64,000 nt of DNA from Nitrospina sp. (GTDB lineage Bacteria > Nitrospinota > Nitrospinia > Nitrospinales > VA-1). A program made the translations under genes and the position numbers. Each line of letters begins with the position of its first letter. Position 1 is the stretch's first letter. The DNA is taken from contig JABHBK010000016.1 of NCBI GenBank assembly GCA_018673915.1, positions 1 to 64,000 of the forward strand, read 5' to 3'. Of the stretch, positions 4,160 to 11,010 are shown one piece after another. Below the pieces are notes generated by a model. The model worked only from the letters and a program-made list of their open reading frames with translations, was not told the origin of the DNA and did no database searches.

Positions 4160-5275
4160 TTATTCATCACCACAATTAGAAATATACATTTTCCCACTCA
4201 ATTGACGAACCACACCTCGCAATTCCAGTTGCAACAGTGTAGCCGAAACTTGCGCAGGAGACAAATTACTGTTTTCAATCAAATTATCTATATGCCTGCC
4301 TTCCAGTGATAATAATGAGAAAATCTTTTTTTCCTCGTCATTATCAAGCAGGATTTTGGGTTTCTCAATTTCGGCCTGAGCCTTCAAACTTTCACCCAAC
4401 GCAGGCAATAGCTCTTCAAGGATAGATTCTGGACTATCGACCAACTTAGCACCAGACTTGATCAGGTTATTAGTCCCTTTGCTTTTAGGAGAGGTAATAT
4501 TTCCAGGAATCGCAAAAACCTCCCTGCCCTGTTCCAAAGCAAAATCAGCAGTAATCAAGGCCCCACTCTTTTCAGCCGCCTCTACAACCACCGTTCCTAA
4601 TGCCAATCCACTCAAAATTCTGTTTCGTGCTGGGAAATTATTACGGTCCGGTCGCATTAAAACAGGAAACTCAGATAAAATAGCCCCTTGCTCGACTATT
4701 TGTTTCCTTAAATTAAGGTTCTCCGGTGGATAAGTATGCCCCAATCCACAACCAAAGACAGCAATAGTATCTGCACCGGCAGTTAAAGCTGCCTTGTGCG
4801 CCAAAGTATCTATTCCCCTAGCCAAGCCACTGATTATACTAAAACCAGCAGAGGCCAGTTTCAAACAAAGTCTTTCCGCAACTAGTTTTCCATATTCAGA
4901 GGGAGTGCGCGTTCCCACAACCGCCAAAGGCAAAGCAATGGTGTTTAAAGCTTTTCCTTTTATATAAAGAATGGGTGGAGGGTCGTAAATAGACTTCAGT
5001 AAAGGAGAATATTCCGGGCTTTCGAGAGTTAAAACCCGCAAACCTTCATTATCTGCCAACCTTAATTCACGTTCTGCGGCTAAGTCAACATCAAAACGCT
5101 TGATTTCATCCACAACCTTGCGGCCAACACCCTGGATTCTCTGCAAATCTTCTCTTGCTGCGGAAAACACCTCACGAGGTGAACCAAAACCCTGCACAAG
5201 ACGGTGGAATAGAGTTCGACCCACTCCAACAACCATATTTAAAGCCAACCAATATTTCAGGGTCTCTCTATCCAT
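4160..5275 (-). CDS. dprA: DNA processing protein DprA (Smf)
   Basis: DprA loads RecA on incoming single-stranded DNA during natural transformation. A helix-hairpin-helix-like segment (IQGVGRKVVDEI) lies near the N-terminus. The Rossmann-like core follows, with VVGTRTPSEYG, SGLARGIDTLAHKAAL, FPARNRILSGLA and GALITADFALEQGREVFAIPG. A C-terminal winged-helix region precedes the stop. At 371 aa it is full length. Its start overlaps the end of the upstream TolC-like gene by 19 nt, suggesting coupled translation. With the pilus ATPase at the window edge, competence is possible but not shown. Confidence 0.95.
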   Translation of the reverse strand: MDRETLKYWLALNMVVGVGRTLFHRLVQGFGSPREVFSAAREDLQRIQGVGRKVVDEIKRFDVDLAAERELRLADNEGLRVLTLESPEYSPLLKSIYDPPPILYIKGKALNTIALPLAVVGTRTPSEYGKLVAERLCLKLASAGFSIISGLARGIDTLAHKAALTAGADTIAVFGCGLGHTYPPENLNLRKQIVEQGAILSEFPVLMRPDRNNFPARNRILSGLALGTVVVEAAEKSGALITADFALEQGREVFAIPGNITSPKSKGTNNLIKSGAKLVDSPESILEELLPALGESLKAQAEIEKPKILLDNDEEKKIFSLLSLEGRHIDNLIENSNLSPAQVSATLLQLELRGVVRQLSGKMYISNCGDE

Positions 5276-6102
5276 GAGGCTTTTACCCGATTTAAATCTG
5301 CAACAGCCAAGTTAAAGTGATAAACCGAATCATAATAGCCGCTCAACACCCGGGTGTATATAATAAGTGCTTCAAACAAGTCTCCTGCATCTCCAATCCC
5401 AAAATCATAGTTTGCCACTTCACTCACCAGCAAAGCCCGAGTAATTTTACGATTCGATCTGGAAATATTAAGTTTCTCTCGGGTTTCAACAGCTTTTAAA
5501 TAACCCGTCCTGAGTGCAAGCTCTTTACTATTTATTCCCTTTGAAACCATAACAGGGGTCAGCCCAGATTCCTTAAACCATGTATCATAATTTGCAAATT
5601 TGAACTGGACAGGTTCTATCTTGGAATCAAGCATTTCTCTATCTGGAAAAGAACTATCCTTAAAAATTAAAGCCAAGGATAATATCGCAGTCTTTATTTC
5701 ACTTTCCAACTCAATGATGCTATTCAAGGTGCCAGCGAGGCCTAGTTTAAGCTTTGTAATGGCTGATTGACTAACATCCTCTTCACCTAAATCGAATTTT
5801 TCTTCCGCTTTTGTAACCGCCTTTTCAAAATGCCCCTGCACTTCTTTTAATATTTCAAGTTTCTGCGTTTTGCTTTGAACCTGATAATAATATTTCTGGA
5901 CTTGATATTCTTTATCAGCTAAAAACAGAACATCATTTCCCGCATAAAGAGAACTTACTTCATCCACCGCTCTTTGCAAATCAGGCAATGGCTCTAACCC
6001 ACCAGCCATAGAACTAGATAATAAACCTGCATAAACCACAAAAATAACTGCTATATATTTGAGCAAAGGCTTAATTAAATTCCTTTTTGATTTTTTATAC
6101 AT
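5257..6102 (-). CDS. Secreted helical protein with TolC-like C-terminal hairpin
   Basis: The product is 281 aa with a basic N-terminus and a hydrophobic stretch (YIAVIFVVYAGLLSSSMAGG) that looks like a signal peptide. The rest is predicted largely alpha-helical. The C-terminal segment YDFGIGDAGDLFEALIIYTR followed by GYYDSVYHFNLAVADLNRVK resembles the last helical hairpin of TolC-family outer membrane efflux proteins. It is shorter than a normal TolC protomer (about 420-480 aa), so it may be a half-length or divergent relative. No efflux pump gene is nearby. Assignment is by resemblance only. Confidence 0.55.
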   Translation of the reverse strand: MYKKSKRNLIKPLLKYIAVIFVVYAGLLSSSMAGGLEPLPDLQRAVDEVSSLYAGNDVLFLADKEYQVQKYYYQVQSKTQKLEILKEVQGHFEKAVTKAEEKFDLGEEDVSQSAITKLKLGLAGTLNSIIELESEIKTAILSLALIFKDSSFPDREMLDSKIEPVQFKFANYDTWFKESGLTPVMVSKGINSKELALRTGYLKAVETREKLNISRSNRKITRALLVSEVANYDFGIGDAGDLFEALIIYTRVLSGYYDSVYHFNLAVADLNRVKASWIERP

Positions 6103-6530
6103 AAAAATTAGTCTGGTTAATTAATATCATTTAAATATTAAGGGAAAGAGACCGCAGGAAAGAAAAAAGGGGTACTAAACTTCTAAAAAGAAACCTTGAT
6201 GGCAACCAAGAATGTTCTCTTTATTGGAAAATGTCCTGGTTCAGGACAGAAGCTCAGTACCCCAGAATGATCAAAAGGTACCACACGCCCCTACCCCTGT
6301 CAATTTTAATATGGACTCTTCATCCCGATTTTAACAAATTTTTGACAAAATTATGCTTTAATTACATATGCTTACATACCACCCGCCATTTTAGCCCCAA
6401 AACTAAGCAATTTAAAACCATAGTTTTCAACACTTTAAATTTTATTGCATCTCCAATTTTTGCAGCCCCTAAAACACAAATTATGTGCCTAAGAATATTC
6501 ATATTTAACAATATTTCAATAGGTTACCTG
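6103..6530. other. Gene-free stretch around the candidate RNA
   Basis: This 428-bp AT-rich gap separates the TolC-like gene from the M50 protease gene. No ORF here looks real; the 103-aa plus-strand ORF (6231-6542) is low-complexity and has no recognisable domain. The stretch contains the candidate structured RNA at 6169-6263. The remaining part, about 6270-6530, presumably holds the promoter for that RNA, but I see no clear -35/-10 pair. Confidence 0.5.
6169..6263 (-). ncRNA. Candidate structured small RNA with terminal 16-bp helix
   Basis: On the minus strand the 95-nt segment begins GGGGTACTGAGCTTCT and ends AGAAGTTTAGTACCCC. The two ends pair over 16 consecutive positions, two of them G-U wobbles that would be A-C mismatches on the plus strand, so the minus strand is the likely transcript. 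An internal hairpin GTCCTG-AAC-CAGGAC follows the first arm. A run TTTTTTCTTT directly follows the closing helix and would act as terminator. It lies between two minus-strand genes. I do not recognise the family; the SRP RNA tetraloop signature is absent. A small inverted-repeat element (MITE) is the main alternative. Confidence 0.5.
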
Positions 6531-8840: not shown

Positions 8841-10976
8841 TTAAGGGAAGTTATGAACGGTAATTTTGACTTCAAGGCCATCCTGCATCCAACCAAAATT
8901 ACCGTGACCCGCAATAGTAGAAATACTTCCTTTCCCGTCTATTTTGCGAATGCGGTTGTTGTCTCGATCGGTAAAGATTAAATTCCCGCTTTTATCAAAA
9001 ACCATTCTGAAAGGTCTTTTCAACTGAGCTTTAGTAGCAAGCCCATTGTCTCCCGTAAAACCCGGTTCGCCAGTACCCGCAACCAGAGAAATAATACCGC
9101 TCGCATCAATCTTTCTAATTCTTGCAGTTTGCTCTTCCGCCAGATACAGGGTTCCATCAGAACTCAAGACTAATCCTCCTGGAGACCTGATGCCCGCATC
9201 TATCGCCAGACCGTTATCCCCATCGTCTTTAAATTCACCGGTCCCACCAACAATTTGAAACTTTCCATCCCTGTCCAATTTACCAATCCGGCTGCTTCCT
9301 GAATCAGAAAAGTAAATCGTCCCTAGATCATCCACTCGAACACTATTGGGATGGAATTCTTCGCCCATTGGCACCATGGTCTCATCCAAAACCTTGTGTA
9401 TGGTGCCATCCTTCTCTATTTTACGGATCGAACGACTTGTAGCATCTGAAATATACACATTCCCGGCCTTATCGGTGGCGATATCACTGATCGTGTAGAA
9501 CGAAGCCGCAACTGCAGGTCCCCCATCCCCATCACTGCCCTGCTGTCCGTTACCGGCAAAATGCGTTATCGTGCCTGCGGCATCTATTTTTCGAATGACC
9601 CAGCCATTGCCAAGACGATGAACAACATAAAGATTGTCCTCATGATCGATGGCAATCGTTGAAGGCATGAATAAGGCTGCAGACAAGGCCGGCCCCCCAT
9701 TACCTTCATTGCCTTCACGCCCGTTTCCGGCAAATGTAGTAATGATTCCATCAGGAGCCAGTTTGCGAATTCTATGGTGTTGCAAATCAGCAAACAGGAT
9801 ATTATCGTGACTGTCTATAACAATTCCCGAAGGAGTATTCAGCGTAGCTCCCCGCCCCGGTCCTCCATCCCCTTTAAAAAGAGACTCACCATTGCCGGCG
9901 AGCGTGGTCACCCTATAATTTTTCAATCCAACACCACGCACGCGAAAATGAGTGCGGTCCACCACCACCAACTGGTTATCGGGATGAATTGCCAGGACCA
10001 AAGGAAGGTGTAAGCTGGTTTCAGGAGCAATTTCATTGTCTCCATTAAATTCGGTCTTACCTATTCCCATTAAAGTTGTGATGACTCCTTGTTGGTCTAT
10101 TTTGCGGATTCGATTATTGTTCCGGTCAGCAATATATATATTGTCTTCAGCATCGACCACCACATCCGTGGGATAAGCCAGATTGGAATAAGAAGCAGGA
10201 CCATAATCTCCACCGAAGGAATGCATGCTGTCACCAGCCAGGGTAGTGATGACTCCCTGGGTATCCACTTTGCGAACGCGATTGTTGCCACGATCAGCGA
10301 TATACAGATTTCCCTGCCGATCCAGTGAAATTCCAAAAGGAAATTTCAGCAAAGCATTTTTGGCCAGACCAAAATCACCGCCAAAACCTTCCAGTCCTAC
10401 CCCTGCTACGGTAGTGATTATTCCCTCCTGATCCACTTTGCGGATTCGATGATTGGATCGGTCAGAAATATAGAGGTCGCCATTAGGCCCAACTTCAATA
10501 TCTGACGGAAAGTGCAACTGGGCTGCCAACGCCGAGCCTCCATCCCCGCCAAAATCTGGCTCGCCGGTTCCCACTAGGGTGGTGATGATGCCATCGGGGG
10601 TAACTTTACGAATCCGGTGATTATTTCGGTCTGCAATGTACAAATTGCCTTCACCATCCAACGCCAAACCCGCGGGGAAATTTAGAGCCGCATCGAGTGC
10701 AGGACCCCCATCGCCAGAAAACCCAGCAATCCCGTTACCCGCAATAGTGGTGATGATGCCATCTGGAGTAACTTTTCTAATCCGGTTTTTCGAACGATGC
10801 GAAAGGTAAATATTTCCATCCCGGTCCACCACAACCCCATCCACCAAAGTCAAAGTGACAGAAGTCGCAAGTTTTCCATCACCCACATCTTTATAGGGAA
10901 AAGATTCAGCGGCTAAAGCCGGGGAGGAAATAGCGAGAACCACAAGTGATATAGTATATATAAGGTAGTTTCTCAT
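8841..10976 (-). CDS. Secreted NHL-repeat beta-propeller protein
   Basis: The mature protein is built almost wholly of about a dozen NHL repeats of the form 'G.LYIADR.NHRIRKV...G.ITT.AG.G...GDGG', predicting a large beta-propeller or two stacked propellers. A signal peptide is visible (MRNYLIYTISLVVLAISSPA). I prefer the ATG at 10976 to the GTG at 10994 used in the ORF track, because GGAG lies 8 nt before it. Its role is unknown; such proteins bind ligands or proteins outside the cytoplasm. It is followed upstream by an LRR gene on the same strand, 16-35 bp away. Confidence 0.85.
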   Translation of the reverse strand: MRNYLIYTISLVVLAISSPALAAESFPYKDVGDGKLATSVTLTLVDGVVVDRDGNIYLSHRSKNRIRKVTPDGIITTIAGNGIAGFSGDGGPALDAALNFPAGLALDGEGNLYIADRNNHRIRKVTPDGIITTLVGTGEPDFGGDGGSALAAQLHFPSDIEVGPNGDLYISDRSNHRIRKVDQEGIITTVAGVGLEGFGGDFGLAKNALLKFPFGISLDRQGNLYIADRGNNRVRKVDTQGVITTLAGDSMHSFGGDYGPASYSNLAYPTDVVVDAEDNIYIADRNNNRIRKIDQQGVITTLMGIGKTEFNGDNEIAPETSLHLPLVLAIHPDNQLVVVDRTHFRVRGVGLKNYRVTTLAGNGESLFKGDGGPGRGATLNTPSGIVIDSHDNILFADLQHHRIRKLAPDGIITTFAGNGREGNEGNGGPALSAALFMPSTIAIDHEDNLYVVHRLGNGWVIRKIDAAGTITHFAGNGQQGSDGDGGPAVAASFYTISDIATDKAGNVYISDATSRSIRKIEKDGTIHKVLDETMVPMGEEFHPNSVRVDDLGTIYFSDSGSSRIGKLDRDGKFQIVGGTGEFKDDGDNGLAIDAGIRSPGGLVLSSDGTLYLAEEQTARIRKIDASGIISLVAGTGEPGFTGDNGLATKAQLKRPFRMVFDKSGNLIFTDRDNNRIRKIDGKGSISTIAGHGNFGWMQDGLEVKITVHNFP

Positions 10977-11010
10977 ATTAGGAACTCCACTCACGCTGGC
11001 CGACGGCCGG

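Follow-up and report, generated by a model that had tools for sequence, protein, structure and literature searches.

The trans-encoded, Hfq-dependent sRNAs of enterobacteria have their own promoter and an intrinsic terminator with a U-run, and they pair at the start of the mRNA. Plasmid CopA/CopT and the antitoxin RNAs of type I systems have long, perfect complementarity to their targets, with complementary hairpin loops at which pairing can begin as a kissing contact. In Chlamydia, the sRNA IhtA represses the histone-H1-like gene hctA (Hc1) by means of a loop lying over its AUG, through a contact of 6-7 nt around the AUG that spares the Shine-Dalgarno (SD) sequence (PMC4355289, PMC3469542). 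For Nitrospina and the Nitrospinota, abundant marine nitrite oxidisers in which regulation by sRNA is nearly unstudied, we found no sRNA descriptions in the openly accessible literature searched.

Here we analyze an RNA locus in a stretch of 64,000 nucleotides from a Nitrospina sp. genome (contig JABHBK010000016.1, positions 1 to 64,000), referred to as the window. Our main reading, to which we assign a probability of about 0.88, is that the locus encodes a stand-alone, trans-encoded antisense sRNA of ~100 nt that represses translation of an unlinked mRNA for an H1-like protein; transcription and repression are both inferred, as no transcript data are available. Like the enterobacterial sRNAs, the predicted RNA has its own promoter, a U-run terminator and pairing at an mRNA start region, but that pairing is long and near-perfect. 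An Hfq-dependent sRNA also requires a host that encodes Hfq, and this is not met: our search found no Hfq gene in any of 41 Nitrospinota genomes, while the control search detected Hfq in five control genomes including E. coli. Long complementarity and complementary hairpins are shared with CopA/CopT and the type I antitoxins, however, the Nitrospinota RNA is far from its target, chromosomal and vertically inherited. With IhtA it shares a trans-encoded, intergenic position, a loop with the complement of a start codon, and a target that is a lysine-rich histone-H1-like gene with conserved first nucleotides (PMC4355289, PMC3469542). It differs from IhtA in phylum, in genomic locus, and in a pairing of 17-29 contiguous bp (28 here), usually over SD plus AUG, as opposed to 6-7 nt. 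Thus, one hallmark of an IhtA-type RNA, targeting of an H1-like gene over its start codon, is met, with H1-like judged by composition only, whereas the short interaction sparing the SD is not. By analogy the Nitrospinota sRNA would work like IhtA, but we do not file it as IhtA and claim no homology. If correct, our reading adds a new RNA family that extends through the order and whose target can be read off the sequence. It would also be a second and apparently independent example of a histone-H1-like protein under sRNA control. This would suggest that DNA-compacting H1-like proteins have to be tightly controlled at translation, and it opens regulated chromosome compaction in free-living bacteria to direct testing.

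The RNA gene and its fold

A preliminary description of the window had proposed an independently ended small RNA with ends that pair over 16 positions, G-U pairs that fix the strand, an internal 6-bp hairpin and a U-run immediately after the helix. All of these elements are present, and they fit the minus strand exactly. The 5′ arm of the closing helix, GGGGUACUGAGCUUCU (6263-6248), pairs over 16 positions, two of them G-U, with the 3′ arm AGAAGUUUAGUACCCC (6184-6169), and the U-run of the intrinsic terminator, TTTTTT, follows directly at 6168-6163. The upper hairpin, UGUCCUG AAC CAGGACA (6248-6232, minus strand), has 7 bp, or 6 bp when U6248 is counted with the closing helix. The minus strand from 6263 to 6169 folds with -44.2 kcal/mol (z = -5.8), and none of 200 shuffles was equally stable. 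An RNA from the plus strand was rejected on account of its weaker fold (-31.9 kcal/mol, z = -3.1) and the absence of a U-run after the helix. Between the arms, also on the minus strand, lie the purine strand UAAAGAGAAC (6214-6223), which in the predicted fold of the free sRNA pairs with the anti-SD stretch in a helix kept in 84% of alignment cells, and the antisense block UUCUUGGUUGCCAUCAAGGUUUCUUUUU (6185-6212). Within the latter is a core hairpin, CUUGGU-UGCC-AUCAAG (6195-6210), which carries the complement of the start codon and is invariant in the alignment.

Directly upstream, all 40 homologous loci have an extended -10, sigma70-type promoter consisting of TTGAC[AG], a spacer of 17-18 nt and TGnTAnnnT. 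In the window these elements are TTGACA (-35, 6298-6303, minus strand) and TGG-TACCTT (extended -10, 6275-6283, minus strand). Transcription is expected to start at about 6263-6268 and to end in the U-run, and we place the predicted sRNA at 6163-6263 on the minus strand. A covariance model built from the 40 homologues scores the window locus at 105 bits. The homologues align with a mean identity of 61%, and the only long invariant block is the antisense core, where 16 nt are identical in 40/40. The upper hairpin varies in sequence and could be aligned only in part, while the U-run after the helix is present in aligned homologues as well.

The preliminary description had asked for compensatory changes in related genomes, and the closing helix supplies them. 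It is paired in 96% of cells, and for 8 of 13 aligned pairs there is at least one sequence in which both partners have changed (9 pairs by RNAalifold). For the whole three-helix structure there are 62 double-change cells, compared with a mean of 31 in column shuffles (0/500 as high), and the covariation signal is lost in slid registers. With promoter, compensatory changes, terminator and conservation through the order in its support, the proposal of an independently ended small RNA stands, with transcription itself inferred. As far as sequence evidence can tell, the RNA is a conserved gene with its own promoter, a covarying closing helix and a terminator, and as such satisfies what a trans-acting antisense sRNA requires of a stand-alone transcription unit.

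The RNA had been reported as unrecognized, and it remains so: a search of Rfam, including SRP RNA, 6S RNA, tmRNA, riboswitches and others, gave nothing at or above the gathering threshold and only chance-level matches at E up to 10. The other possibility that had been raised, a MITE or similar repeat, is excluded because the genome holds a single full copy of the RNA.

Predicted pairing with the start site of an H1-like gene

The preliminary description had missed the most informative part of the RNA, a 28-nt block complementary to a histone-H1-like gene at its start site. In BLAST searches of the RNA against 60 relatives, this start site was the recurrent second place of match. The reverse complement of the core CUUGGUUGCCAUCAAG together with the pyrimidine, anti-SD stretch is found once more in most genomes, and this second site is always AAAGGAGAUCUUG AUG GCA ACC AAG, which comprises the SD and opening codons of a gene for a Lys-rich protein (MATKKKAAKKK...). 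The gene encodes a long Lys-rich repeat that varies greatly in length and repeat content, and in this genome, where its ATG is at 87629 on the plus strand of another contig (G000:C70), it is cut by the contig end. Its histone-H1-like identity is judged from Lys/Ala-rich composition only; 60 residues of such a protein from a relative matched nothing in Pfam. Further short hits of the RNA query (L044, G038:C25:120002-120020, and L050, G057:C29:10461-10489) lie inside unrelated sequence and appear chance-like.

In this genome the cognate duplex has 28 uninterrupted pairs over SD and start codon, with -42.3 kcal/mol. Across 29 cognate pairs from 29 genomes the run is 17-29 contiguous bp, usually covering SD plus AUG, which fulfills the expectation that complementarity to the start region of an unlinked mRNA be conserved. 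For control start regions of the window (n = 89), the longest pairing run was at most 14; one control with a 70-nt run was set aside, as we take it to be a reading frame that overlaps the RNA from the opposite strand. Longest uninterrupted pairing was adopted as the measure because whole-molecule RNAduplex minima gave poor separation from controls. The net gain on cofolding is only 11 kcal/mol, and since the free sRNA is very stable, pairing needs the sRNA to open. In lineages g6, f2 and f3, a single mismatch separates the core from the SD part. The sRNA and mRNA show few compensatory changes with respect to each other, as there is hardly any variation in the paired block. Where perfect pairing with the SD would call for C, the sRNA usually has U; by inference, this would lessen mimicry of the 16S anti-SD. 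Pattern searches of this genome found perfect complements of the core only in the sRNA itself and the H1-like start site, and the inspected near matches (≤3 mismatches to the 16-nt core complement) were not convincing as SD or start sites of further targets.

The target sites are themselves unusually uniform relative to the genes they belong to. Using a search pattern that left third codon positions free, we found 44 sites in 43 genomes of the order, and all read ATG GCA ACC AAG, while in the rest of the same genes the frequencies among synonyms are 0.41 for GCA, 0.17 for ACC and 0.34 for AAG. The sole outgroup site found, ATG GCT ACA AAT, is from a genome without the RNA. As the 44 sites come from related genomes, their count is not one of independent events. 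Because the synonymous codons are identical in 44/44 sites compared with their frequencies elsewhere in the genes, the H1-like start site is, on this codon evidence, constrained beyond the protein sequence, however, its common conservation could partly reflect ribosome or codon constraints.

From these features we propose the following mechanism. The mRNA start site is predicted to fold as CUUG-AUGGCAAC-CAAG, which places the start codon in the loop and leaves most of the SD exposed, and the sRNA to form a complementary hairpin with the anti-AUG in its loop and the anti-SD stretch held by an A-rich strand. The sRNA hairpin CUUGGUUGCCAUCAAG and the pyrimidine tail UUUCUUUUU would pair with the SD and first four codons, starting at the loops or the exposed SD and spreading to ~28 bp. 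A duplex over SD and AUG would block binding of the 30S subunit, and we infer that it probably invites cleavage by RNase III, for which a 28-bp duplex is a fitting substrate. Little H1-like protein would then be made while the sRNA is present. We infer that a nucleoid-compacting protein is probably kept low in this way during active growth. The lack of an Hfq match is consistent with long, Hfq-free pairing.

Neighborhood, distribution and other possible roles

The gene order proA-M50 peptidase-sRNA-orf281-dprA-topA is kept through the order, with the RNA immediately ahead of orf281 in the same orientation. This arrangement is what would be expected of a cis-acting leader or attenuator of orf281-dprA-topA, whose terminator helix stops transcription unless a signal opens it. 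We consider such a role improbable, given that the distance to the downstream gene ranges from ~100 to >600 nt, that in lineage L014/L071 orf281 is absent and dprA is next while the RNA is intact, and that the RNA has its own promoter. An attenuator would also leave unexplained the exact antisense of a distant start site that is conserved at synonymous positions. For the product of orf281 itself (window 5257-6102, minus strand, immediately 3′ of the RNA), the only match is a weak, outer-membrane-efflux-like (OEP) one.

The sRNA and its target are unlinked, being on different contigs here and far apart on the complete chromosomes G017, G037 and G016. This bears on a second possibility, a trans-encoded type I toxin-antitoxin pair with the basic H1-like protein as toxin and the sRNA as antitoxin. 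Antisense across SD and start codon is a usual type I arrangement, and chlamydial HctA is lethal if expressed in E. coli, an effect relieved by IhtA (PMC3469542). However, in type I systems the antitoxin RNA is adjacent or opposite to the toxin gene, which is not the case for these unlinked genes, and a long Lys-rich repeat stands where a small hydrophobic peptide would be expected. The sRNA also occupies one inherited housekeeping locus across the whole order, and nothing suggests addiction behavior. We give this explanation no better odds than the attenuator, and retain translational repression by a stand-alone sRNA.

With the covariance model, the RNA was found in 52 of 64 genomes of one Nitrospinota order, spanning four families. 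The 52 include one fragment at contig ends and exclude G035 and G052, in which the only match was the target gene itself. In other families of the class, 0/13 genomes had the RNA. Among named GTDB genomes, the RNA pattern gave 27 loci, from Nitrospina, Nitrospinaceae, Nitrospinia or Nitrospinae/Nitrospinota records and one record labeled Nitrospirae. Loss of the RNA in some relatives is unsupported, because in all 12 order genomes without it the neighboring M50 peptidase gene is absent too; owing to gaps, these assemblies probably do not include the syntenic contig, although joint deletion in G009-G011 is not excluded.

The leader loop and the origin of the RNA

Upstream of the start site, a 5′ hairpin in the leader of the H1-like mRNA bears a conserved GGGCGCUGAAAC in its loop, while the stem of this hairpin varies in sequence between lineages. 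In this genome the loop is at G000:C70:87585-87596 (L079, L107) and is the only copy; leaders L080-L156 have it as well. The 3′ arm of the sRNA (GUUCAGYRCCC) nearly complements GGGCGCUGAAAC, with one mismatch here, and does so in collinear antisense order with the core. This match may mark a second contact, or may be left over from an inverted duplication that gave rise to the sRNA; neither is established. Inspection by eye for a 3′ arm that tracks the leader loop of the mRNA did not find one; the arm varies independently of the mRNA.

The collinearity of core and 3′ arm with the antisense of the H1-like leader is also what an inverted duplication would leave behind as a mere relic, a copy of the 5′ region that landed in a transcription unit by chance and has no regulatory role, but such a relic would not keep 16/16 invariant bases, a promoter, a covarying helix and a terminator across four families, and we regard this as the least credible explanation. 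An origin by inverted duplication may nevertheless be compatible with function. We tentatively hypothesize, as a possibility that we think doubtful on present evidence, that an RNA brake on an H1-like chromosome protein evolved in an Hfq-less phylum independently of Chlamydia IhtA, with the sRNA gene arising from an inverted duplication of the 5′ region of its target and still contacting both the start site and the leader loop.

As a separate observation on the window, the minus strand at 8841-10994 encodes a 717-aa protein with repeated units of the YIADRxNNRIRKV type, which by eye resemble an NHL-like beta-propeller.
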